A DNA stretch of 64,000 nucleotides from NCBI RefSeq assembly GCF_002995495.1, contig NZ_PVZV01000001.1:124001-188000 (forward strand). The letters run 5' to 3'. The stretch is from Actinocorallia populi (GTDB lineage Bacteria > Actinomycetota > Actinomycetes > Streptosporangiales > Streptosporangiaceae). The notes beneath the pieces were generated by a model that was given only the letters and a program-made list of their open reading frames with translations, had not been told where the DNA came from and did not search any database. Made by a program: the position numbers and the translations under genes. Below are positions 14,912 through 29,378 of the stretch, in pieces. Each line of letters starts with the position of its first letter. Positions within the stretch are counted from its first letter, which is position 1.

Positions 14912-16600
14912 GTGGACCGGGAACAGGTGACACACGGCCTCGACGCACTCGGAGCCAGGCTCGCGGCCCTGCCCGGCGCACCCAGGAACAGCCTGGAACT
15001 GCGGGTGCGCTGGCTGCTGGCCACCGTCGTCGCCGTCGCCAACGGCGTGGGCGGCATCGTCGTGCTGCTGTTCGTGCTGGTGGTCCTCCCCAACCCGGAG
15101 GAGGTCATCGAGGCCCGCCCGAACATCAACATGATCAACCTGATCTCCTTCCTCTCCTATCCGGTGGTCGCCGCGCCTCTGGTGATGTGGTGGGGACTCA
15201 AGCTCTTCGACCCCGTACGGCGGCTCGTCCGGGAACAGGGCACACCCGACCGGGAGCAGCGCCACGCCGTCCTCCTCGGACCCGCGCGGCTCACCCTCAT
15301 CCAGGCCGTCCTCTGGGGCGTCGGCGCCCTGGTCTGGACCGTCATCAACGCCACCTTCCACCCCCTGATGGCGCTCAAGGTGGCGATGACCTCCCTTCTG
15401 GGCGCGATCACCACTCTGGCGCTGGTATACCTGCTCGCCGAACGCCTGCTGCGTCCCGCGACGGCCCTCGTCCTGGCCACGCAGCCGCCGCGCGAGCACC
15501 TGATGTCACGGGTGACGAGCCGCGCGATGCTCGCCTGGGCGCTCGGTACGGCGGTTCCGCTGCTCGGCCTGGTCGTCATCGCGATCGTCGCCTTCGTGGA
15601 CCCGGACTTCGTCCAGGTCGAAGTCGCCTCCTCCAGCCTCGTTCTGGGCGTGGTGGCGCTGACCGTCAGCTTCCTGGTGACGTTCGAGGCCTCACGCGCC
15701 GTCGGAGACCCGATCAGAAACGTGCGTGACGGCATGGCGCGGGTCGCGAAAGGCGACCTGGATGTGAGCCTCACCGTCTACGACGCGAGCGAGCTCGGGC
15801 AGTTGCAGGCCGGGTTCAACAACATGGTCACGGGGCTGCGCGCACACGAACGCCTACAAGATCTGTTCTCCCGGCACGTCGGAAGCGATGTCGCGGAACT
15901 GGCCCTCAACTCCGACATCTCGCTCGGAGGCGAGATCAAGGAAGTCGCCGTTCTCTTCGTCGACCTGGCCGGATCCACCAAGATGGCGGCCGAACGTCCG
16001 CCGGACGAGGTCGTCGCGCTGCTCAACCTCTTCTTCGGTGTCGTCGTCGACTGCGTGAACCGCAACGGCGGCTGGATCAACAAGTTCGAAGGCGACGCCG
16101 CGCTCGCCATCTTCGGCGCCCCGACTCCGCTGGAGCAGGCCGGCGGGCACGCCCTCACCGCCGGACGGGAGATGGCCACCCGGCTGCCGCTGGAGGTGCC
16201 CGAGGTCACCGCCGGAATCGGCGTCTCCGCCGGAACGGTCGTCGCCGGATACATCGGCGCCGAGCAGCGGTTCGAGTACACCGTCATCGGCGACCCCGTG
16301 AACGAGGCGGCCCGGCTGAGCGACCTGGCGAAGACCGCCTCCCCGCTGCGCGTCCTCGCCTCCGCGGACGTCTTGGAGGACTGCGACCCGCTGGAGGCGT
16401 TCCGCTGGGAGGCCGGCCAGGCCATCACGCTCCGCGGACGGCCCCAGCCGACGATCCTCGCCCACCCCCGGACGGCGAACGAGCCCGAGTCACCCCTGCC
16501 GGAACTGGTGGCCCGGACCCGCGGCCGCCTCAAGCGCCGTAGCCGGATGTTCCCGCTGCTCTCACTCTTCTCCCTCCGCCAGGACGACTCCGACCTCTGA
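14912..16600 (+). CDS. Membrane adenylate cyclase with HAMP domain (class III)
   Basis: The 562-residue protein has an N-terminal region with about six transmembrane segments (35-255), a HAMP linker (about 258-310), and a class III nucleotide cyclase domain (about 340-500). Metal-binding aspartates are Asp351 (F-V-D-L-A-G-S-T) and Asp395 (K-F-E-G-D-A). Lys391 and the Asp in V-I-G-D-P-V-N are the purine-selecting pair typical of adenylate cyclases. The order matches the mycobacterial Rv1318c-Rv1320c group. It should make cAMP in response to a membrane signal. The GTG at 14912 has GGAGG upstream at good spacing. It is a single gene whose stop is 5 bases from a convergent hydrolase. Confidence 0.93.
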   Translation: MDREQVTHGLDALGARLAALPGAPRNSLELRVRWLLATVVAVANGVGGIVVLLFVLVVLPNPEEVIEARPNINMINLISFLSYPVVAAPLVMWWGLKLFDPVRRLVREQGTPDREQRHAVLLGPARLTLIQAVLWGVGALVWTVINATFHPLMALKVAMTSLLGAITTLALVYLLAERLLRPATALVLATQPPREHLMSRVTSRAMLAWALGTAVPLLGLVVIAIVAFVDPDFVQVEVASSSLVLGVVALTVSFLVTFEASRAVGDPIRNVRDGMARVAKGDLDVSLTVYDASELGQLQAGFNNMVTGLRAHERLQDLFSRHVGSDVAELALNSDISLGGEIKEVAVLFVDLAGSTKMAAERPPDEVVALLNLFFGVVVDCVNRNGGWINKFEGDAALAIFGAPTPLEQAGGHALTAGREMATRLPLEVPEVTAGIGVSAGTVVAGYIGAEQRFEYTVIGDPVNEAARLSDLAKTASPLRVLASADVLEDCDPLEAFRWEAGQAITLRGRPQPTILAHPRTANEPESPLPELVARTRGRLKRRSRMFPLLSLFSLRQDDSDL

Positions 16601-17823: not shown

Positions 17824-18053
17824 GTTCTCCTCCTGGATCGACCGGACTCCAACCTCCTTCAGCGGTCTCCGATCGCGCATCGCGCCCGGGGCAGGGTTTC
17901 GCACTAGCTCTTCCAGGGGGGTGCGTTCACTCTGACGGACGACCCGACCCGGATGACGTGCGCTGACGGTTCCATAGGAACGCGCGCCTGAGGCGCGCCG
18001 AACCATCCACAGGCCACTAAGCGATCTTGGTCGAAGGCGCGCATGCTGAGGGC

Positions 18054-18419
18054 ATGGAAATTCACCTGACCTTCAGCAAGCCGCAGGAGCACGACGGACG
18101 GCGGGTCTGCGAACTCGACGTCTCCGCCGACCGGCTCGTCATCGGTGACGGGACCTTAAGAGCGCTCGACAAGGGGTCCGTGGTCGGTGAGGTCGCCCTC
18201 GCCGACATCGCAGTGATCGACCTCCCGGGCCGGCGCTCGGTGAGCGCGCTCCGCGAACGCCACCCCAACGCCTACCGGCCCTGGACGTCCGAGGAGGACG
18301 CCCGGCTGCTCGCCCTCCTCGAGAAGGGCGAGCCGCTGGAGTCCCTCACCCGGCACTTCGGGCGGGGCAAGAACGCCATCCTCGGGCGCCTCTACAAGCT
18401 GGAGGCGTTCAAACCCTGA
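18054..18419 (+). CDS. Small protein with a C-terminal Myb/SANT-like helix-turn-helix
   Basis: The 121-residue protein has an N-terminal beta-rich half and a C-terminal three-helix segment (about 78-118) starting R-P-W-T-S-E-E-D-A-R-L-L and continuing with F-G-R-G-K-N-A-I-L-G-R-L. This is the Trp- and acid-rich pattern of Myb/SANT-like DNA-binding domains seen in short actinobacterial proteins and at the ends of some helicases. The function is unknown; DNA binding is inferred. The ATG at 18054 follows GAGGGC; an in-frame GTG/ATG upstream adds nine residues. It is convergent with the Wadjet-like jetC gene and separated from it by a terminator. Confidence 0.75.
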   Translation: MEIHLTFSKPQEHDGRRVCELDVSADRLVIGDGTLRALDKGSVVGEVALADIAVIDLPGRRSVSALRERHPNAYRPWTSEEDARLLALLEKGEPLESLTRHFGRGKNAILGRLYKLEAFKP

Positions 18420-18424
18420 TCCGG

Positions 18425-18461
18425 CGGAGGAGGGGGGCTCCCCCTGGAGCCCCCTCCTCCG
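18425..18461. terminator. Hairpin terminator between SANT-like gene and jetC-like gene
   Basis: The stem CGGAGGAGGGGGGCTC / GAGCCCCCTCCTCCG has 15 pairs with one bulged G and a 6-base loop. It lies wholly between the convergent stops at 18419 and 18463. Confidence 0.8.
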
Positions 18462-18462
18462 G

Positions 18463-21400
18463 TCAGCCCTCCTCGGCGAGACCGGCCAGCAGGCCGGACT
18501 CGGCGGGGGAACGGCGGCTGGGCGGGAAACCCAGCAGGGTCTCGGCCAGCGCGTCGTTCCCCGAGTAGGCGGCGTCGGCGTCCAGCAGGGCCGAGCCGTC
18601 CCAGAGCACCAGCATCGTGGAAACGGTATGGGAGGCCTTGTCGCTGTGCATGTCGTAATGAGCGGCCATGGGAACCGAGGAGTACGAGGCCCACAGGTCA
18701 TGGCCCGTCATGAAGGTGTCCAGGCCGAACTTCACGGTCAGGCCCAGCAGCTCGGGCTTGTAGCGGTCGTCGATGCCGGCGAACGCCTCGTCGAGCGCGA
18801 TCATGCGGGGGCAGGTGTCCTTCGCCGACGAGTAGAGGGCGTTGGCCGCGGCGAACAGCGGCAGGTGGATCGCCGCGGACTTCTCGCCGCCCGACATCTG
18901 CGAGTGCTTGGCCCGGGTCAGCGTGACCTCCTCGCCGTGCGGCTCGGCCAGGCGGAGCTGGAACTCGAACCACGTCCGGTAGTCCACCACCGCCCGCAGC
19001 GCCTCCAGGTAGCTCGCCCGGGTGTGCTGTGCCCGGTGGGCGCGGATCATCTCGCGCAGCAGGCCCCTCAGCTCGGCCAGGCCCTCCGGGCCGAGCGCCC
19101 CCGTGTCCCGGGTGAGCAGGTTGGCGACGGCGCGCTGCCGCTCGTCGAGCCTGTCCGAACGCGCCCAGCGGATGCCGACGGTGCTGCCGGTGGACATCGG
19201 GCGGGAGCGGGTGTCGGCGTCCATGCCGCGCACCAGCTCCCGCGCCAGCCGGACCCGGTCGTGGATCTGCTGGGCCAGGCTGCTCAGCAGCTCGTCCTCC
19301 AGGACGGTGCGCTCCCGCTCGTCCAGCAGGAGACCCTGCTCGACCAGGCGGCCCGCGATCCGGTCGGCGAACGCCGGGACCGAGCCGCGGCCCTCCACGT
19401 CGACGACCTGGACGACGACGACCTCCCCGGCGTCCAGGTCCAGGCGGTAGTCCTCCTCGCACTGGTCCAGCGCGTCGCCGAACTCCTTCAACGCGTCCGC
19501 CATCGCGTCGCGGGTCGTCTTGCGGGCGTTCTCGCCGACCTGGCGGCCCGCCGGGAGCGCGGCACGGTAGGCGTCGAGGATCCGCGACGCAGCGGGCGGA
19601 AGCACCTCGCGGACGGCCTCCTCCGGCGTGCGGCCCTCGACGATGAGCGCGACGGTGCGGGCGCCGAGCTCCTCGGCGGTGCCGGTGTCTCCGGGCCAGA
19701 TCTCGGCCGCCTCGACGTCGAGGACCTCCCGCAGGTCCGGCCGGGTGAACGGGGCGAACGCCGTGAGCTGCTCCAGCAGCACGTCCCACGCCTCGGCCAG
19801 CGCCCGGCTCCCGTGTTCGACGGCGGCCCGCGCCTTGACCAGCGCGTCGTGCTCGGCCGCGACCGCCGCCTCCTGCCCGGCCCGCGCGGCATCGGCCTCC
19901 CGGATCTCCCGCTCGGTCTGCTCCACCTGTCGCAGGATCTCCTTCAGCGAGGAGCCCAGCGCCTCGGTGCGGGCGGCCAGCCTCTCCTCCAGAACGGCCA
20001 GGACCTCACGCCGCTCGTCGAGGGACTCCTCGTCCTCGGCGTTCTGCGCCTCCAGCCGCTCGACGGTGTCCCAGCGCGAGGCCAGGTCCCGTTCGAGTTC
20101 CGCGATGTCCTGCTGCTCCCGGAAGAGCAGCTCGCCCGCCGCCACGAAGTCGTCGACCGCCCGTGCGACGGCGGCCAGGCCCTCCTCGGTCCCCGGAAGG
20201 TCCCGTTCGGCAGCCACCTGGCGTACCTTGCGCTCGGCCGCCTCCTTCGCGGCGGCCGCCTCGTCCAGGGTCTTGCGCGCCGCCGAAGCCGCCTCCCTCG
20301 CCTGCCCGAGCAGCACCGAGCCGCGCTCCGCCTCCTTGATCGCGCGCAGCACCGGTTCGACGTCCGGCAGCGCCCGCCGCGCCGCCGACAGGTCGTCCAG
20401 CACTCCCCGCAACCGCTCCTGCTCCCGGCGGACCTCCTCCTGCTCCTTCTTCAACCGCTCGGCCGCCGCGTCGCAGGCCTCCAGCCGGGCCCGCCTACGC
20501 TGCGCCCGGTAGGTGGCCCCGATGTACTCGGGCCGCTCCTTCGGCCGGGCGCCCACCCGCGCCCCGAACGAGAACTGCCCTCGCACCCCGACGCCCGGCA
20601 GCGCGGGGTCGTCCCCCTCGACCAGCGCGACCGACGCCAGCACGGCCTCGATCACCTCCACCGGCACCGCCTCATGGCTCTCCGGCAGCAGCACGTCCGC
20701 CAGAGACCGTCCCGCCACCGGCTCCCCCGGCAGCAGGAAACCGTCCGCCACACGCGCCGCGTAGTCCCGCCGCGTGTCCTCAGCGGAGGGATTCACCCAG
20801 GCGGTGAGCATGCCCGCACCGTCCAGCGCCCCCTCCAGCCCGGCGGCCTCCGCGTCGCTCAACCCGTCCGCGAACCGCACCAGCTGCCAGAAGGCCGCCC
20901 CCTCACGTCCTGCTCTGCCTTCGCCGTCCGCCGACGCAGGCGGCGCGTCATCCCGTTCCGCCGCGATCTCCGCCCGCTCCGCGGCCAGCCCCCGCAGCCC
21001 CTCCGCGACGACCTCCCGCCGCGCCTTGAGCTCGGCCAACCCCGTGATCGTCTCGACCCGGAGCTCCTCGGAAAGCTCCGCGAACACCTCTCCCAACGTC
21101 GCCGTCCCGGGCTCACCGACCCGCTCCAGCACCGCGGCCAACGGCTCCTCCGCGACCCCCGCGACCCCGCTCCACCGCACGGCCCACTCGGCCAACCGCG
21201 CGGCGGCCTTCCCCCGCGCGGCCCCCAGTTCCTCCTCCGCCCCCGCGATCTCCTCCTCCCCCTTCAGCAGCCGCTCCCGAGCCCCTTCCAGCCCCGCCTC
21301 GGCCCGCTGCCACTCCTCCCCGACCTTCCGCGCCTCCCCCAGAGCCCGCCGCACCTCGACGACGTCCTCCCGCCGCACCGCGGCCCGCCCCCGCACCGAC

Positions 21401-22992
21401 TCCAGCCAGCCCCTCAACCCCTCCCCGACCACCACAGTCGAGGCGGCCGACACAGGCAGCGTGACCGACACGACTGACGCATCCGCTGCGGCCGACGCAG
21501 GCGATACGGACGGCGTGGCCGACACGGACGGCGTGGCCGACGTGGCTGACGCATCCGCTGCAACCGACGCAGGCGATACGGCCGACGCAGGCAGCGTGAC
21601 CGACACAGGCGATGTGGCCGACACGACTGACGCATCTGCTGCGGCCGACGCGGGCAGCGTGGCCGACGTAGCCGACACGGACGGCGTGGCAGGCGTGGTC
21701 GACGCGGATGGCGTGGTCGACGCGGATGGCGTGGTCGACGCGGATGGCGTGGTCGAGGTGGGGGACGTGGGTGTCTTCGGGGTGGGTTGGAGGGGGGAGG
21801 TGGGGTCGGTGGGGATTCTGGCGGTGTGGGCGGCTTCGGTGAGGGTGGTGTGGTGGTGGGTGAGGGTGGTGCGCTTGGTGGTGAGGCGGGTGGCGGCGGA
21901 CTCGGCTTCGGAGCGGAGGGTCGCGGCGTGGTGGCGGGAGTTGGTGAGGCGGGCGGTCTCCTTCGTGAGGTGGTCGGTGGTGTCGGCGATCTGGCGGCGG
22001 AGGTGGTCGAGGTCGGTCTGCGCCTGGTAGGCGTCGTGCCCCTTGAGGGTCTCCAGGCGGGTGGTGAGCTTGGTCAGGTGGTCGGCCGTGGTGGCGCGGG
22101 CCTGTTCGGCCGCCTGTTTGGCGGCGGTGGCGCGGGCGGTCTCGGCGACGGCCTCACGCAGGGCGGTGCCGTGGGCGACGGCCTGGGCGGTGCGGGTCCC
22201 GACGCGGTCGAGGTGGAAGCGGGTGTGGACGCGCAGGTACTCGCGGTAGTGGTCGAGGAAGACGCGGACGGCGTCACCCGCGTGGCTCAGGTCGTCGTGG
22301 AGCCGCTGGACGGCGGCGAGGTTCTCGAAGTCGCGGGCCGCCTGGTCGACGAGCGACTCGTCGACGGGGCTCAGGCCGGCCGTGAGGGTGGCCGAGACCT
22401 TCGCCGGGTCGAGGTCCTTGGCCAGCAGGGGGCGGCGGAGCGCCAGCAGCAGGTCGAGCAGCTGGTTGTAGCGCTCGCGGCCCAGCCCGAAGAGCCGGTT
22501 GTCCACGAGTTCGCGGTACTCGGTGGCCGTCTTGGCGTACGAGCCGGGCTCCAGCGACTCGCGGAGGCGGCGGTCGGTGAGGGGGCGGCCGTCCACGGTG
22601 AGCAGCCCGAAGTCCACGCCCAGGCGCTTGGACGTCACGTAGAAGGACGTGACGACGCCGTCGCGGTGCCTGTGGGCGCGCAGGCCGATCACCAGCGTGA
22701 CGGTCTCGCCGGACGGAGCGAGGAACTCCATCCAGACGTAGCCGTGTTCGGACTCCTGTCCCCGGTAGAGCAGGTTCGACTTCATGGTCCGGTTGTCACC
22801 GGAGAACGGGTCGAGCCGCCGGGCGTCCGCCACCCCGTCGAGGACGAACGGGAACAGCACCTCCAGCGCCTTGGTCTTGCCCGAGCCGTTGTGCCCGCGC
22901 AGCACCAGCCGCCCGTCGGCGAAGACGAACTCCTCGTCGACGTAGTCCCACAGGTTGATCACTCCGGCGCGCGACGGCTTGAACCGGGTCAT
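18463..22992 (-). CDS. SMC/MukB-like ATPase of the TIGR02680 type (Wadjet JetC-like)
   Basis: This 1509-residue protein has an N-terminal ATPase half with the Walker A G-H-N-G-S-G-K-T (about residue 35-42) and a C-terminal half with the ABC signature M-S-G-G-E-K-S and a Walker B M-I-A-L-D-E-A-F-A-G. In between are long heptad-rich coiled coils. This is the SMC/MukB layout, and the opening R-F-K-P-S-R-A-G-V-I-N-L-W-D-Y is characteristic of TIGR02680, the JetC motor of one Wadjet anti-plasmid class. A repeat-rich Ser/Ala/Thr/Pro insertion of about 125 residues (near 395-525) lies in the first arm. The ATG overlaps the jetB-like stop as ATGA and has GGAGGAAA upstream, so the two are coupled. No jetD-like gene follows. 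Confidence 0.92.
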   Translation of the reverse strand: MTRFKPSRAGVINLWDYVDEEFVFADGRLVLRGHNGSGKTKALEVLFPFVLDGVADARRLDPFSGDNRTMKSNLLYRGQESEHGYVWMEFLAPSGETVTLVIGLRAHRHRDGVVTSFYVTSKRLGVDFGLLTVDGRPLTDRRLRESLEPGSYAKTATEYRELVDNRLFGLGRERYNQLLDLLLALRRPLLAKDLDPAKVSATLTAGLSPVDESLVDQAARDFENLAAVQRLHDDLSHAGDAVRVFLDHYREYLRVHTRFHLDRVGTRTAQAVAHGTALREAVAETARATAAKQAAEQARATTADHLTKLTTRLETLKGHDAYQAQTDLDHLRRQIADTTDHLTKETARLTNSRHHAATLRSEAESAATRLTTKRTTLTHHHTTLTEAAHTARIPTDPTSPLQPTPKTPTSPTSTTPSASTTPSASTTPSASTTPATPSVSATSATLPASAAADASVVSATSPVSVTLPASAVSPASVAADASATSATPSVSATPSVSPASAAADASVVSVTLPVSAASTVVVGEGLRGWLESVRGRAAVRREDVVEVRRALGEARKVGEEWQRAEAGLEGARERLLKGEEEIAGAEEELGAARGKAAARLAEWAVRWSGVAGVAEEPLAAVLERVGEPGTATLGEVFAELSEELRVETITGLAELKARREVVAEGLRGLAAERAEIAAERDDAPPASADGEGRAGREGAAFWQLVRFADGLSDAEAAGLEGALDGAGMLTAWVNPSAEDTRRDYAARVADGFLLPGEPVAGRSLADVLLPESHEAVPVEVIEAVLASVALVEGDDPALPGVGVRGQFSFGARVGARPKERPEYIGATYRAQRRRARLEACDAAAERLKKEQEEVRREQERLRGVLDDLSAARRALPDVEPVLRAIKEAERGSVLLGQAREAASAARKTLDEAAAAKEAAERKVRQVAAERDLPGTEEGLAAVARAVDDFVAAGELLFREQQDIAELERDLASRWDTVERLEAQNAEDEESLDERREVLAVLEERLAARTEALGSSLKEILRQVEQTEREIREADAARAGQEAAVAAEHDALVKARAAVEHGSRALAEAWDVLLEQLTAFAPFTRPDLREVLDVEAAEIWPGDTGTAEELGARTVALIVEGRTPEEAVREVLPPAASRILDAYRAALPAGRQVGENARKTTRDAMADALKEFGDALDQCEEDYRLDLDAGEVVVVQVVDVEGRGSVPAFADRIAGRLVEQGLLLDERERTVLEDELLSSLAQQIHDRVRLARELVRGMDADTRSRPMSTGSTVGIRWARSDRLDERQRAVANLLTRDTGALGPEGLAELRGLLREMIRAHRAQHTRASYLEALRAVVDYRTWFEFQLRLAEPHGEEVTLTRAKHSQMSGGEKSAAIHLPLFAAANALYSSAKDTCPRMIALDEAFAGIDDRYKPELLGLTVKFGLDTFMTGHDLWASYSSVPMAAHYDMHSDKASHTVSTMLVLWDGSALLDADAAYSGNDALAETLLGFPPSRRSPAESGLLAGLAEEG
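21423..21790 (-). repeat. Low-complexity repeat insertion within the JetC-like coiled coil
   Basis: The segment is built from short in-frame repeats encoding Pro/Ser/Ala/Val/Thr and Asp. It includes three exact 18-bp copies (21698-21751, GTCGACGCGGATGGCGTG) that encode T-T-P-S-A-S, and longer degenerate units encoding P-A-S-A-A-A-D-A-S-V-V-S. The composition differs from the charged heptads on both sides and it is a probable site of copy-number variation. Confidence 0.75.
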
Positions 22993-24596
22993 GCGGGTGT
23001 TTCCTCCAGGCTGAGCTGTCCCCGCTCGGGAAGAGCGAGAGTGATGTTGCGATAACGGAAGGCGGCGGGCAGCACGAGGACCCCGCCCGCCACGGGACGG
23101 AGCAGCCGCAGATCGGCGAGGAACGCCACCGCCGCGGCCAGCAGCCCGGACGGATCAGCCTGCCAGACCCCGGTGAACGACGCGGCCCCGAACTCGGCGT
23201 ACAACCTCCGCACCACCTCCTCCAGCCGCCCCGCCGACACGAACCACAACCCCTCCCCCGCACCGGCGGCCCCCGCACCCGCCCGCGCCGCGCCCTCTAC
23301 GGACGGCTCCCCCGCAGACGCACCGGCCCGCACCGCAACTACGGAAGGCTCCTTCGCAGACACGTCGGTCCGCACCGTATCTGCGGACAACTCCTCCGCA
23401 GACGCACCGACCTGCGCCGTACCTACGGACGACTCCTCCGCAGACGCACCGGCCCGCACCGTGTCAACGGACGGCTCCCCCGCAGACGCACCGGCCTGCG
23501 CCATGTCTGCGGACGGACTCCTCTTGGCGGGTGTGCCCTGTCGTGGGTTGCTCTTCAGGGATGGCCGCTTTGCCGGGCTGGTCTCCGGTGGGGGTTCGGC
23601 GGGTGTCCAGGCGAGGCCGGTGGCGATGCCGTGGGCGGGGAGGGCGGAGTCGATGCGGGCGAGGGTGTCCGCGTCGGCGGGGGCGGTGGGGGCGGCCCTG
23701 GTCAGTTCGCCCTCCTCCACCAGGTCGGCGATGGCGGCCAGGAGGAGGCCGGCGGCGCGGTTGACGGCGCCGCCCTGGCCGGGGAACGGGCGGTCGGTGA
23801 AACGGCCGGACGCGTCCGCGAGCATGACGCCTTCGGCGCGCTGCTCGACGGTCATGCCGGTGAAGCGCGCGAGTTCCTCGGCCGCGCCCGGCAGGGCCTC
23901 GGCGATCTCCGGGCGTACCTCGGAGAAGTACACGACCGGGTGTTCGACGAGCAGGCGCCGCGCCTCTCGCATGACGTCCGGCATCCCCGCGTGCAGGAGT
24001 CCCGCCGCGCTCGTCAGGTGCTGGACGGGCCGCGCCGGCTTGTACAGGGCCGTGCAGATCTCGTGGTCGATGTCGTAGAGCGCGTCCCCCGTCCGGTCGT
24101 CGCGCGCCCACGCCTCCAGCGAGCCGTCCGACAACCGCAGCGCCCCGTGGTCGACCAGCCAGTCGATCGCGTCGACGAGCGCCGCCTTGTGCGCCGCAAC
24201 GGTCGGCTCGAATCCCAGCCCCTCGATCGTGTTGGCCGCCGGGGTCACCAGCCGTACGAGATCCGCCAGGCTGATCTCCACCCGGGACCGCTGGAACGTC
24301 GACAGCACCAGGCACAGGTACGCCAGCCTCCGCCGGTCGAACGGCCGGCGGTTGCGCGCGAACAGCTGCCCCTGCGTCGCGTCGAACGCGTCCAGCCGCC
24401 GCACCAGCCGCACCAGGTGCGTCGTGGCGATCAACTGGTACCCGAAAAGCTCACGAAAGTCGTGAGCGAGCTGATCGGACCATCGCAGCACCTGCTCCAG
24501 CACTCCCGCCCGAGGCCGGGAGGCCGTGATCAGATCCCGTGTCAACACCTGCCGCACGGCCCGCTGGTACTCCGCCAGATCAGCCGGCTCCACCAT
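22989..24596 (-). CDS. TIGR02678/DUF2398 protein (Wadjet JetB-like)
   Basis: The 535-residue protein starts L-A-E-Y-Q-R-A-V-R-Q-V-L near its N-terminus, the TIGR02678 opening, and continues with an all-alpha/winged-helix MukE-like region. It is the probable JetB-type accessory subunit bridging the SMC ATPase and the kleisin-like JetA. Residues about 330-435 are a low-complexity linker containing five and a third copies of a 14-residue repeat; the conserved C-terminal domain resumes with L-W-F-V-S-A-G-R-L-E-E-V-V-R. ATG 24596 is chosen because the family starts there; GTG 24608 is an alternative. The stop overlaps the jetC start by 4 bases. A 264-base gap separates it from the jetA-like gene, which is unusual for this operon. 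Confidence 0.88.
   Translation of the reverse strand: MVEPADLAEYQRAVRQVLTRDLITASRPRAGVLEQVLRWSDQLAHDFRELFGYQLIATTHLVRLVRRLDAFDATQGQLFARNRRPFDRRRLAYLCLVLSTFQRSRVEISLADLVRLVTPAANTIEGLGFEPTVAAHKAALVDAIDWLVDHGALRLSDGSLEAWARDDRTGDALYDIDHEICTALYKPARPVQHLTSAAGLLHAGMPDVMREARRLLVEHPVVYFSEVRPEIAEALPGAAEELARFTGMTVEQRAEGVMLADASGRFTDRPFPGQGGAVNRAAGLLLAAIADLVEEGELTRAAPTAPADADTLARIDSALPAHGIATGLAWTPAEPPPETSPAKRPSLKSNPRQGTPAKRSPSADMAQAGASAGEPSVDTVRAGASAEESSVGTAQVGASAEELSADTVRTDVSAKEPSVVAVRAGASAGEPSVEGAARAGAGAAGAGEGLWFVSAGRLEEVVRRLYAEFGAASFTGVWQADPSGLLAAAVAFLADLRLLRPVAGGVLVLPAAFRYRNITLALPERGQLSLEETPA
23297..23521 (-). repeat. 42-bp tandem repeat (about 5.3 copies) inside the JetB-like gene
   Basis: Copies start at 23297, 23339, 23381, 23423, 23465 and a partial one at 23507, each 42 bases. 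The unit keeps frame and encodes 14 residues of the form (S/T)-V-x-x-A-x-A-G-A-S-A-E-E. Differences between copies are mostly single substitutions. This is a minisatellite within a defence-type gene. Confidence 0.88.
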
Positions 24597-24860
24597 GCTC
24601 ACGGCCACGTCAGCCGACCCCCACCGAAAATCACCGAAACCCGTGAACGGACTCCGCCCACGAGCCCGAGCCGCCCGCCTCCGGGCAGGGACTCTCGAAG
24701 AGCACGCCCGAGCCTCATGAGCGGTCCCCGCGCGACCGTCCAAGCCGACCGCCCGGCGTCGAAGAACACATCCGAGCCCCGTGGACGGAATCCGGTCGAG
24801 CGGCTTCGCAGGGTCTTCGGGCGAGGACCCCTAGGGCTCTGGGCGAGAGCGGGAGGCATG

Positions 24861-26396
24861 TCAGTGAATCTCCAGGTGGAAGCCGGGAAGGTGGAGGGTG
24901 CCGGCCTCGGTACGGACTGTAGAGCCCGCCTCCGACGGAATGAGGCGGAGTTCCACGGTGTCGTCGGCGCCGGCGCCGTGGGTGACGCGGCCGGCGACGA
25001 CCGCGCGGGCTTCCAGGGCACGGGTGAGGAGTTTGAGGACGACGCGGGTCTCGGGTTCGCTCAGGACGCGGTCGTGCGGACCGTTCCTGGCCAGGGAGGC
25101 CGCCGCCTCCTTGTCGACGGCTCGCTGCTCGAACTGGGTCCTGCGCAGCTCCGCGCGGATGCCTCGGTTGACCTTCACCGGTTGCGGGAGCCCCTGGGTG
25201 GGGGTCTTGCCGGTGCGGAAGAGGCTGATCGACAGTTCGATGCCGGGGGCGTCCCACCAAGTGGCGCGGGGGGAGATCTGCTCGTCGTCGTCATGGGCGC
25301 CGCCGAGGTGGCGGGCGGAGCGGAGGTTGAAGGCGGCGGACATCAGAGCGTGGGCGGACTCGTCGTCGGGGGTGTGGAAGACCCATTCGGCCAGGTGGCG
25401 GAGCTGGGTGGAGCGGTTGACGCCGCCGCGCTGGGCCTCGGTGATCTGGCGGAGCAGCGCGATGACCGCGGACACCGCCGTACGGGTGGCCTCACGCAGG
25501 TCCACGGCCTTGGAATCATGCGGGGAGAACCACTCGCGGAGCGCGGCCCAGCGGCGCTGCCAGTCCTCCATCTTCTCGCTGGTGCGGAGGAACAGGCGTT
25601 CATCGGCGTCCGCCGCACGTGACAGCAGCGTGTAGACGCCTGTCTCCTCCACTTCCCGAACGGCTTCGGCCAGCCGCGGAAGGTGCCTGTCCAGCTCCGT
25701 CATGAAGTCGCTCATGTGGGTGAGCAGCGCATTCTTATAGGTGAGGAACATCTCCGCGGACGTGTCCGTGGAGCGGATGATCTCGCCCAGCGTGACGTGG
25801 AACTGCGCCGACCGCCGCGCCATGTCCTCCATCGCCGCGTCCAGGCGGCTGATACGCCGGTATACCTGATCGCGGTCACCCGCACGGTTGGCGATGGCCA
25901 GCGCCCTCAGGTCGTCGAGGACGTCGGAGAAAACCAGCCGGGAGAGATTCGCGTCCCGGACTCGGGCCGCCAGCACCTGCTCGACGGCCGTGTACGCCCG
26001 GTAGCCGAGCTCACTGAACTGGTAGACGGACTGGCGGTTGCGGTAACGCGCGAGGCTCCCGGCCCGTGAGGCGTCCTCGAGCCGGTGGACGACGCCGTCC
26101 TCCGCGAGCGCGTCCAGCCTGTCCCGCAGGTTCCGCTCGTCGAGCCTGTCCCACGCGGCGCCCTCGCCGAGGACGCCCTCATGCGCGATGACGAGCTCGT
26201 TCAACGCCGCCACGACCTGCTCGGTGTGCACGCGCACCTGGTGCACCGAGCGGAGCCTGTCCATCGCGCGCAGCACCCACAGGTACGCCAGGTGGTCGTC
26301 ACGCCGCGTGAAGTTGAAAAGACGGAACCGCTCGCTGACCGCCGGCTCGTCCAGGCCGTCACGTCCACCGGCATCAAGCCCACCCCGAACTTCCAC
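24861..26396 (-). CDS. TIGR02677/DUF2397 protein (Wadjet JetA-like, kleisin/MukF-like)
   Basis: The 511-residue protein begins with the family segment F-R-L-F-N-F-T-R-R-D-D-H-L-A-Y-L-W-V-L-R (about residues 24-43), has a winged-helix-rich N-terminal half, a long helical middle (about 150-300) and a C-terminal winged-helix region. This is the TIGR02677 architecture that corresponds to the kleisin-like JetA of Wadjet. It is the first gene of the three-gene minus-strand set. GTG at 26396 is the only in-frame start ahead of the conserved region; no strong Shine-Dalgarno is seen. A divergent DUF2786 gene starts 98 bases upstream, so both may share a regulatory region. Confidence 0.88.
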   Translation of the reverse strand: MEVRGGLDAGGRDGLDEPAVSERFRLFNFTRRDDHLAYLWVLRAMDRLRSVHQVRVHTEQVVAALNELVIAHEGVLGEGAAWDRLDERNLRDRLDALAEDGVVHRLEDASRAGSLARYRNRQSVYQFSELGYRAYTAVEQVLAARVRDANLSRLVFSDVLDDLRALAIANRAGDRDQVYRRISRLDAAMEDMARRSAQFHVTLGEIIRSTDTSAEMFLTYKNALLTHMSDFMTELDRHLPRLAEAVREVEETGVYTLLSRAADADERLFLRTSEKMEDWQRRWAALREWFSPHDSKAVDLREATRTAVSAVIALLRQITEAQRGGVNRSTQLRHLAEWVFHTPDDESAHALMSAAFNLRSARHLGGAHDDDEQISPRATWWDAPGIELSISLFRTGKTPTQGLPQPVKVNRGIRAELRRTQFEQRAVDKEAAASLARNGPHDRVLSEPETRVVLKLLTRALEARAVVAGRVTHGAGADDTVELRLIPSEAGSTVRTEAGTLHLPGFHLEIH

Positions 26397-26493
26397 CCGT
26401 CAAGGGTGCACCATCTCCGCACGTGGTCGTGCGGACTCCGGGCAGGCTGTGGACGGCTGATGGAGTGTCGGTGGCGGGTGGAAAGGTGGGGCC

Positions 26494-27198
26494 ATGGACC
26501 AGCGGATGCTGGGAAAGGTTCGGGCGCTGCTGCAGAAGGCGGAGTCGACCGAGTTCCCGCAGGAGGCCGAGGCGCTCACCGCCCGCGCCCAGGAGTTGAT
26601 CGCGCGTTACAACCTGGACGAGGCGCTGGTGGAGGCGGGGCTCGGCGGGGTGCGTCCGGACGGGCGGGCGGTCGCGGTCACCCACCCCTACGCGGGGCCC
26701 AAGGCGATGCTGCTGCACGTCGTGGCCGAGGCGAACCGCTGCCGCTCGGTGTGGCACCGCGAACGCGGTGAGGCCACGGTGCTCGGCTTCCCCGCCGACC
26801 TGGTGGCGGTGGAGCTGCTGTTCACCTCGCTGCTCGTCCAGGCGACGACCGCGATGCTCCAGGCGGGCAGCCGCCAGGACGCCTCGGGGCGGTCCCGTAC
26901 GAAGTCCTTCCGCCATTCCTTCCTGTCGGCGTACGCGCTGCGCATAGGCGAACGGTTGAAGGAGGCGACGGAACGCGCCGTGCGGGAGAACCCGTCGGCC
27001 GAGCTGCGGCCCGTCCTCGCGTCCCGCAACGCGGAGGTGGAGCGTTCGGTGGCGGAGCGGTTCCCCCGGCTGCGCCGGTACAGGGGCGGTTCCCCCACCA
27101 ACCCGGACGGCTGGATGCAGGGCCGCGCGGCAGCCGATCAGGCCGCTCTCGGCCATGCCGAGCTGTCGGACCGGTGGCAGGGCCAAGGGCGGGGATAA
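26494..27198 (+). CDS. DUF2786 domain protein A
   Basis: The 234-residue protein opens with the DUF2786 motif: K-V-R-A-L-L-Q-K-A-E-S-T-E-F-P-Q-E-A-E-A-L followed by R-Y-N-L-D-E-A-L. The C-terminal part contains L-L-H-V-V-A-E-A-N-R-C-R and a final D-G-W-M-Q-G-R-A-A-A. The biochemical function is unknown; these proteins occur in phages, plasmids and actinobacterial chromosomes. AAGGTGGGG precedes the ATG. It lies divergently beside the Wadjet-like genes, and a longer paralogue is encoded at 28380-29378, which shares the central and C-terminal motifs. An association with the Jet-like genes is suggested by position only. Confidence 0.85.
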   Translation: MDQRMLGKVRALLQKAESTEFPQEAEALTARAQELIARYNLDEALVEAGLGGVRPDGRAVAVTHPYAGPKAMLLHVVAEANRCRSVWHRERGEATVLGFPADLVAVELLFTSLLVQATTAMLQAGSRQDASGRSRTKSFRHSFLSAYALRIGERLKEATERAVRENPSAELRPVLASRNAEVERSVAERFPRLRRYRGGSPTNPDGWMQGRAAADQAALGHAELSDRWQGQGRG

Positions 27199-27207
27199 CA
27201 TCGAACG

Positions 27208-27516
27208 GTGAGTAACCAACCGGACACCGGAAGATATCTCCGCGTCTCCCTCGACCTCATGGTCGAGGTGACCGACCCAGAGGCGCTGCAGGCCGCGGCC
27301 CTCACCGATCTGAGGACCCGCGACCTCGACGCCGGGGAGCGAGACGCCCAGCACGCCCAGATCACCGCCGACGCCACCGGCGCCACCGCCCTCCGCTGGC
27401 TCATCACCCCCGACGACATCCTCGGCCTCGTCGACCAGATCACCGAGATCGAACCGGTCGAGGCGATCCTCGAGATCAGCGAGTCCGAAGGCGCCCTCGC
27501 CCCCGAAGAGGACTGA
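27208..27516 (+). CDS. Conserved hypothetical small acidic protein
   Basis: The 102-residue acidic protein has no motif I recognise. It contains an N-terminal Y-L-R-V-S-L-D-L-M-V-E-V-T-D strand-like segment and a C-terminal Glu-rich tail, with no signal peptide or membrane segment. GTG at 27208 lies 9 bases after the DUF2786 gene and 6 bases after a -10-like TAACAT (27196-27201), so it may be transcribed both with its neighbour and from its own leaderless promoter. Codon usage matches the chromosome, supporting a real gene. Confidence 0.72.
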   Translation: MSNQPDTGRYLRVSLDLMVEVTDPEALQAAALTDLRTRDLDAGERDAQHAQITADATGATALRWLITPDDILGLVDQITEIEPVEAILEISESEGALAPEED

Positions 27517-28379: not shown

Positions 28380-29378
28380 GTGCACGAACCGGAGCAGTTG
28401 ATCACCGCGGCGATGGATGCCCAGTTCACCGACGATCTCCGGAACCGAGACACCTCCATCGCTCTTCTTTCGGCGAACGGCGCCGCCGACGGCCCGCTCC
28501 GCGCCGCGTTGGAACGTGCCGTGCGCACCGCCGCGGAGCGGGGCTGGCAGCCGGAGGACCTCCGCCGCCATCTCACCCGCTTCCTCTCCCCCGAGCACGC
28601 GGCCCTGCTGGCGGCGCCCGGCCCGGGGGAGCGCGACCGCCTCACCGCGATCAGCCGGCTCATCGACGTCCTGTGCGAGCTGCGCAGGCTGCCGAAGATC
28701 GCCGTGCTCACCCGTTCCGCGGCGCCCGCCCACCCCTCGCTGGGACGCATCCGCGCCCTGCTCGCCAAGGCGGAGTCCACCTCCTTCCCTGCCGAGGCCG
28801 AGGCGCTGGTGGCCGCCGCCCAGCGGCTGATGACCCGCCACAGCCTCGACCAGGCGGCGCTGGACGCCTCCGCCGGTGTCCGGTCGTCTGCGGACCGTTC
28901 AGCGGATGTCAGCGCGCCGTCAGGCGTGCGTCTCCCCGTGGACAACCCGTACGAGGAGGCCAAGGCCACGCTCCTGCACGTCATCGCCGAGGCCAACCGG
29001 TGCCGCGCCGTCTGGCAGTCCGACCTCGGCTTCTCCACGGTCCTGGGTTATCCGGCCGACCTGGAGGCGGTGGAGCTCCTCTACACGTCGCTGCTGCTGC
29101 AGGCCGATGCCGCCATGCCCAAGAACGGTTCGAAGCGCAAGTTCCGCCAGAGCTTCCTCACCTCGTTCGCCCACCACATCGGCGAGCGACTCGCCCGGGT
29201 CGGGGAGGAGGAGGTCACCGACGACCTCCTGCCCGTCCTCGCACGCCGTGACCAGGCCGTGGACACCGCCGTGGAGCGGCTCTTCCCCGCCGTGAGGAGC
29301 GTGCGCGGCCGGACGATCCAGGACCTGGACGGCTGGGAGCAGGGCCGCAGGGCGGCAAAAGAGGCCGACCTGACCTGA
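28380..29378 (+). CDS. DUF2786 domain protein B (with N-terminal extension)
   Basis: The 332-residue protein has an extra about 120-residue helical N-terminal region followed by the DUF2786 segment R-I-R-A-L-L-A-K-A-E-S-T-S-F-P and the same L-L-H-V-I-A-E-A-N-R-C-R and D-G-W-E-Q-G-R-R-A-A motifs as protein A. The molecular function is unknown. GTG at 28380 is taken as start, but GGGAAG abuts it too closely to be a normal Shine-Dalgarno; an ATG at 28413 is an alternative. Presence of two paralogues separated by only 1.2 kb indicates local duplication followed by gain or loss of the N-terminal part. Confidence 0.82.
   Translation: MHEPEQLITAAMDAQFTDDLRNRDTSIALLSANGAADGPLRAALERAVRTAAERGWQPEDLRRHLTRFLSPEHAALLAAPGPGERDRLTAISRLIDVLCELRRLPKIAVLTRSAAPAHPSLGRIRALLAKAESTSFPAEAEALVAAAQRLMTRHSLDQAALDASAGVRSSADRSADVSAPSGVRLPVDNPYEEAKATLLHVIAEANRCRAVWQSDLGFSTVLGYPADLEAVELLYTSLLLQADAAMPKNGSKRKFRQSFLTSFAHHIGERLARVGEEEVTDDLLPVLARRDQAVDTAVERLFPAVRSVRGRTIQDLDGWEQGRRAAKEADLT

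Follow-up and report, generated by a model that had tools for sequence, protein, structure and literature searches.

A type II Wadjet JetABC locus without jetD in Actinocorallia populi, and its relatives with and without the nuclease gene

The window analysed here is a stretch of 64,000 nucleotides from Actinocorallia populi (contig NZ_PVZV01000001.1, positions 124,001 to 188,000). On its minus strand, at 18463-26396, it encodes the JetA, JetB and JetC proteins of a type II Wadjet, all intact and in the gene order A-B-C, and the gene for the JetD nuclease was found neither in the operon nor in the genome. We consider it probable, from comparison of the genes with those of relatives, that the locus is a JetABC motor that is maintained without JetD as a working ATPase complex, with a selected role other than cutting. 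A Wadjet is understood to combine a sensor-motor (JetABC) with a cutter (JetD), and loci without jetD bear on whether the motor is useful alone. Repeated loss of only the cutter, together with purifying selection on the motor, implies that the motor contributes to fitness by itself, and a non-cutting function appears to be the best fit to that selection.

The jetABC locus

The main features of the locus are as follows (coordinates of the window; aa, amino acids).

24861..26396, minus strand: jetA, kleisin-type subunit (DUF2397, TIGR02677), 511 aa
22989..24608, minus strand: jetB, KITE-type subunit (DUF2398), about 539 aa from the likely start GTG at 24608 (the listed open reading frame, ORF, extends to 24743)
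18463..22992, minus strand: jetC, SMC-type ATPase (TIGR02680), 1509 aa, with Walker A, signature and Walker B intact
23297..23514, minus strand: low-complexity linker of JetB, with 42-bp repeats
21426..21768, minus strand: low-complexity insert of JetC, about residues 409-522, with repeats mostly at 9- and 18-bp spacing
18425..18461: strong inverted repeat (about -35 kcal/mol as RNA) that separates jetC from the convergent gene; candidate two-way terminator
18420..26487: complete jetABC cassette; both congeners have an empty site with the flanking genes adjoining

JetA scores 194.7 bits against TIGR02677 (cut-off 165.85) and 427.8 bits against DUF2397, and JetC scores 641.6 bits against TIGR02680 (cut-off 462.85). 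An earlier note on this DNA, made from the sequence alone, had assigned the three genes to TIGR02677, TIGR02678 and TIGR02680. This holds for JetA and JetC, but JetB falls under the TIGR02678 cut-off (96.7 bits, cut-off 124.65) and is instead recognized by DUF2398 (168.8 bits, cut-off 26.9) and by the PADLOC model JetB2. All three genes are placed in type II by the PADLOC models (JetA2, 532 bits; JetB2, 477; JetC2, 1154), with the JetC2 score far above that for JetC1. TIGR02680 is the sole NCBIfam match of JetC at E<=0.001, in libraries for which the presence of an MksB model was not established. At the same threshold JetC has no match to TIGR02168, and a separate canonical Smc is encoded on contig C2 of the genome, which distinguishes the locus from Smc-ScpAB.

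The ATPase motifs of JetC that the note described as intact are all readable (Walker A GHNGSGKT, signature SGGE, and Walker B). JetC and JetA match the chains of those names in PDB 9qe0/9qe1 (9qe0_A, 1.7e-72, and 9qe0_E, 6.5e-10, respectively); JetB matched none of the chains in these entries, for which no open-licence paper was found. From its position, the low-complexity insert of JetC probably lies in the coiled-coil arm. The gap between jetA and jetB is about 250 bp, compared to medians of -4 bp in relatives lacking jetD and -1 bp in relatives with jetD (maximum 205).

The ATGA overlap that joins jetB and jetC is real, but the earlier note's reasoning that it leaves no room for jetD concerns the wrong end of the operon. 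In relatives with jetD this gene directly follows jetC (30 loci, overlapping by a median of 4 bp), and thus its absence cannot be deduced from the jetB/jetC overlap. The inverted repeat at 18425..18461 occupies that position in the window: only 43 hairpin-filled bp lie between jetC and a convergently transcribed gene (about 121 aa). Searches by tblastn with the JetD proteins of relatives found no trace in the window, in agreement with the note's report of no such gene in the 64 kb.

Three candidates for a hidden or substitute nuclease were rejected. The note had allowed for a Toprim domain inside one of the existing frames, but the extra length of JetB and JetC is largely low-complexity repeat and does not conceal a JetD. 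The upstream minus-strand ORF at 26374-27354 is not a diverged jetD, as it has no family match and the true coding gene, with DUF2786, runs on the opposite strand at 26494-27198. A substitute gene at the jetD position is not supported either: no family is consistent there across loci, and most of the 20 neighbour proteins that were looked up (a subset of the neighbours) are of commonplace kinds, among them a methyltransferase, a two-component system, transporters and TetR.

Related loci and loss of jetD

A scan with JetA identified 79 loci in Microbispora, Planotetraspora, Sphaerisporangium, Actinoallomurus, Nocardiopsis, Streptomyces and other genera, for a total of 80 with the window. Loci were classified by tblastn and by profiles built in this analysis, with the JetD profile made from trimmed frames (the jetD of L074 was found by tblastn, and this locus was counted as having the gene). 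Full-length jetABC occurs with jetD in 31 loci and without it in 35; the remaining 14 are undetermined or damaged. To be placed among the loci lacking jetD, a locus had to have full-length jetABC, at least 1.8 kb visible past jetC, and no jetD, and intact-length jetC is part of this selection. Dropped were nine loci on contigs that end in or before jetC (L060, L062, L075, L082, L083, L086, L095, L101, L111), one on a contig that ends 270 bp after jetC (L047) and four with damaged genes (L079, L092, L103, L113). The comparison of neighbourhoods among relatives that the note had suggested therefore sets 31 loci with jetD against 35 without it among 66 intact loci, with an empty site in both congeners. 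Loci L061 and L065 have gene-free gaps of 1.16 and 1.26 kb after jetC, about the size of jetD, with no similarity to JetD by tblastn.

A second survey, which overlaps the first set of loci, covered 295 genomes of the family and found 74 JetA places of this clade in 73 genomes (JetA above 600 bits, own place excluded). Among the matches listed, 22 places have TIGR02679 within 12 kb, 29 are in genomes without a TIGR02679 match, and for 23 the match is elsewhere or not listed; the last group is uncertain because at least one of its members (G025, the genome of L098) has jetD by coordinates.

On a tree of the 66 JetABC sets, the presence or absence of jetD switches at least 12 times, with 10 of the changes forced by well-supported branches. 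The state is clustered on the tree, as shuffled states gave a mean of 22 changes and none of 500 shuffles was as low as observed. A model with jetD at the root and no regain requires 20 losses. We read the changes mainly as independent losses of jetD, with the window probably one of them. Traces of such losses are preserved in several relatives. L058 is 95% identical over 17.1 kb to L052, which has jetD; the similarity ends about 90 bp inside that gene, leaving a 5' stub. L092, in which jetC itself is broken, is collinear with L090 apart from jetD, which is cleanly excised, and L049 has about 65 bp at the position of jetD in L039. In L108 and L140, jetD survives as pieces about 9.9 kb past jetC, beyond a regulator gene and a gene with Fn3 repeats. 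These remnants and the clean excision give strong support, for the clade as a whole, to the loss of the nuclease that the note had offered as one explanation; for the window itself we infer it from these relatives.

Constraint on JetABC in loci lacking jetD

All three ATPase motifs are present in 66/66 loci. The window retains 423 of the 429 columns that are invariant in the other 65 loci (98.6%) and matches the majority residue at 57% of variable columns, and L105, which has jetD and a branch of equal length, retains 423/441. Intactness of the loci lacking jetD proves less than substitution rates do, because intact-length jetC was used to choose these loci.

Ratios of nonsynonymous to synonymous substitution rates (dN/dS) were calculated by simple counting in genes of high GC content, so that absolute values are rough, and some pairs share a member. 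For 11 chosen pairs in which both loci lack jetD, the ratios are 0.07-0.28 (JetA), 0.13-0.28 (JetB) and 0.20-0.50 (JetC). The corresponding ranges are 0.05-0.17, 0.07-0.27 and 0.16-0.46 for 10 pairs in which both loci have jetD, and 0.04-0.21, 0.16-0.33 and 0.22-0.36 for 6 mixed pairs.

No region of JetA, JetB or JetC showed significantly relaxed constraint on the branches lacking jetD after correction (551 windows of the alignment). The strongest signal is reversed, with fewer changes on these branches in a JetC segment at residues 1107-1118 of L046 (p = 1.9e-6, among 551 overlapping windows). We draw nothing from this, as the set of loci with jetD includes deep outgroups.

Searches for JetD elsewhere in the genomes

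The source genome comprises 8.25 Mb in 25 contigs, with a completeness of 100. The whole-genome search with hidden Markov models that the note had recommended returned no JetD: there was no match to TIGR02679 (all 13 candidates scored), PF09664 or PF09983, and none to a profile of 14 JetD proteins, of which 13 are from relatives in the clade and one is from the locus of the other congener (65/81 candidates scored). As controls, TIGR02679 was positive in 2/2 congeners, PF09983 in Corynebacterium glutamicum and the relatives' profile in 3/3 genomes with jetD. PF09664 gave no match in any control, and thus its negative result shows nothing alone.

We also searched 36 genomes with loci lacking jetD, some of them metagenome-assembled (those of 34 of the 35 loci, the window being apart, plus those of L047 and L092). 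TIGR02679 was not matched in 22, only by fragments in two (L089, L108), and by a full-length protein elsewhere in 12; the control was positive in 6/6 genomes with jetD. The relatives' JetD profile, applied to 23 of the 36, identified nothing in 20 and remnants in three (L058, L089, L108), with 3/3 genomes with jetD positive. The jetD fragments in the genome of L089 are at another place, without jetABC. Within the 10 genomes of the two deepest clades lacking jetD, TIGR02679 is absent from seven, full-length elsewhere in two (L066, L110) and present as fragments in one (L089). The note's suggestion of a nuclease encoded elsewhere thus finds no support from profiles in the window genome, but some in related genomes.

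A role of these JetABC complexes as substitutes for canonical Smc was rejected, since TIGR02168 was matched in 43/43 genomes (42 over the cut-off).

A small gene, with an N-terminus that looks membrane-like by eye, is divergently oriented beside jetA in 13 Nocardiopsis loci, with and without jetD alike (L066, L069, L070, L075, L077, L080, L088, L089, L090, L092, L095, L096, L111; second copies in L077 and L080). The copy in L080 has an Mrr-type restriction endonuclease domain (PF04471), and the remaining copies were recognized by a cluster profile.

Evaluation of the alternatives

Several observations weigh against a maintained, non-cutting motor. We met no functional evidence for a type II complex without JetD. 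The window holds no stub or remnant of jetD, and the few well-supported conflicts between the JetD and JetABC trees make occasional exchange or regain of jetD possible (15/27 splits are in common for 30 loci with jetD, L098 excluded, and the conflicts are mostly weak). As a tendency, dN/dS is slightly higher in pairs lacking jetD. The four damaged jetABC loci (L079, L092, L103, L113) all lack an intact jetD, compared to 31/31 intact loci among those with jetD (Fisher p = 0.12). A full-length JetD is encoded elsewhere in 12/36 genomes with such loci, including those of L066 and L110, and the absence of a relaxed region in JetABC could mean that a partner still binds.

The last two of these points favour a nuclease acting in trans, in which JetABC would sense small circular DNA and still bring about its cutting, by recruiting a nuclease from elsewhere in the genome that is either unrelated to JetD or strongly diverged; constraint at the putative JetD interface, in particular, does not look relaxed. 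One candidate for such a nuclease is the Mrr-type gene of the 13 Nocardiopsis loci, but it accompanies loci of both kinds and is not in the window. No gene family is consistently found in the place of jetD, 22/36 genomes have no TIGR02679 match, and no JetD family that was searched for is matched in the window genome (this genome-wide search was for JetD families rather than for nucleases generally). We regard a nuclease in trans as unlikely.

Slow decay, in which jetD is lost first as costly or toxic and a functionless jetABC persists until it too is lost, seems to us no more probable. It is consistent with the four damaged loci, with the low-complexity inserts, the jetA-jetB gap and the long branch of the window locus, and with a second jetABC in the same genome in which JetC lacks the presumed hinge region. 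Nevertheless, the two deepest clades lacking jetD (6 Nocardiopsis and 4 Sphaerisporangium) have kept about 2,300 codons open, the pairs tested within them have dN/dS well below 1, and the window has kept nearly all of the otherwise invariant columns. The ATPase motifs are also intact throughout the 66 loci, although intact-length jetC was part of the selection of those lacking jetD.

That jetD is present but outside the assembly or past the reach of the profiles is very improbable, despite the 25 contigs, the 16 candidates left unscored by the relatives' profile and the PF09664 search without a positive control, given the 100% completeness, the complete scoring of TIGR02679 candidates, the positive TIGR02679 results in congeners and in relatives with jetD, the position of the locus inside a contig with both flanks syntenic with the congeners, and the recurrence of the state in other genomes, including at least one complete chromosome (L063).

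For a JetABC motor maintained without cutting, we can propose a mechanism from the biology of Wadjet and MksBEF. JetC dimers with JetA and JetB would bind DNA and extrude loops using ATP. Without JetD there would be no cutting, and the motor could at most fold, trap or move DNA. Small circular DNA may be compacted or sequestered, and in this way be replicated or inherited poorly. Another option is that the complex acts on the chromosome alongside canonical Smc-ScpAB, in the manner of MksBEF in Pseudomonas aeruginosa.

A broader proposal, on which we are slightly more doubtful than confident, is that type II Wadjets of Actinomycetes have been disarmed repeatedly, with the loss of JetD leaving a selected, non-cutting SMC motor with its own role on the chromosome or on episomes. 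These would be at least a dozen parallels of the switch that has been proposed once for MksBEF of Pseudomonas. Literature searches among open-licence papers (preprints were outside this scope) returned no title or abstract opening that describes recurrent jetD loss or type II Wadjets without jetD. The switch could be tested directly in sister species of unlike jetD state, such as Planotetraspora mira and P. silvatica, which share 95% identity over 17 kb.

Comparison with known systems

In complete Wadjets, JetABC is described as extruding circular DNA, which JetD is then thought to cut (PMC10586767, PMC12287153). The window locus shares with type II JetABCD the JetA2, JetB2 and JetC2 families, the A-B-C order and the ATPase motifs, but lacks the JetD effector (Toprim nuclease, TIGR02679/DUF2399). 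We therefore file it as a variant of the type II Wadjet without jetD rather than as a complete Wadjet, perhaps working like MksBEF. The EptABCD system of Mycobacterium smegmatis is a type II Wadjet.

MksBEF and MukBEF-type systems have the same architecture as the window locus, an operon of SMC, kleisin and KITE subunits without a nuclease. MksBEF is probably of a sequence family other than type II and represents a stable lineage rather than recurrent loss. In P. aeruginosa, MksBEF is thought to descend from a Wadjet that lost its nuclease and is described as coexisting with SMC (PMC10586767, PMC7485682). A chromosomal role is reported there but not here. C. glutamicum has MksBEFG, described as an actinobacterial Wadjet-type condensin alongside Smc-ScpAB (PMC7083940, PMC10123090). 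Unlike the window locus it includes a nuclease (MksG), and by the account in PMC7083940 it makes no contribution to chromosome folding.

Tools that require all four genes, such as PADLOC as it is described in PMC9252829, will not call loci without jetD complete Wadjets. PADLOC has a class 'wadjet_other' for loci that, like this one, have some Jet genes only. This class is a catch-all that includes fragmented or Muk-like loci, and type II loci without jetD are not treated as an entity in the part of PMC9252829 on which we draw.

A second type II-like architecture without jetD was identified in nine genomes from nine genera of the same family (L142-L150; 9/9 loci fetched), chosen for a TIGR02680 match with TIGR02679 absent among the matches listed. 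The gene order is JetB, full-length JetC, a gene of 596-702 aa in the place of JetD, and three further shared genes. A short JetA (217-273 aa) was recognized in 8/9, and 5/9 have small repeated genes upstream (about 70-110 aa). In L150, the only one of these loci in which families were looked up, the fourth gene encodes an SMC/RecF-like ATPase, JetA covers DUF2397 in its C-terminal part only, and HadA-like, HadB-like and MurB proteins are encoded next. This architecture has the appearance of an SMC system that belongs to the chromosome, is inherited vertically and has a fourth partner of its own.

Insertion site, flanking genes and a second jetABC

The cassette is bordered by two genes on the opposite strand.

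18027..18419, plus strand: convergently oriented neighbour of 121-130 aa without a Pfam family; synteny conserved in both congeners
26494..27198, plus strand: divergently oriented neighbour of 234 aa with DUF2786/DUF7168; synteny conserved in both congeners

The cassette, about 8.07 kb long, is present in the window genome and absent from the same site in both congeners, in which the sequence matching window positions ~18,320-18,338 resumes at 26,487. With the cassette here and not in two congeners, a gain in this lineage is simpler than two losses (for these three genomes only). The congener G001 has its own jetABCD at another place, with a JetA that is 62% identical.

The DUF2786 gene at 26494-27198 is related to the gene at 28380-29375 (plus strand); two small genes are located between them, within the syntenic flank. 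On the other side of the cassette, at 14912-16600 (plus strand), the window encodes a protein with HAMP and adenylate/guanylate cyclase domains and matches to Pycsar cyclases, and matching DNA is present in both congeners.

We identified a second jetABC in the same genome, on another branch and also without jetD (L154:5274-11352, corresponding to G000:C5:280773-286851). Its JetC is only 1119 aa long and is missing profile region 524-770, where the hinge would be expected, although the ATPase motifs are still readable. Immediately upstream of this second jetABC is a gene for an ADP-ribosylglycohydrolase.

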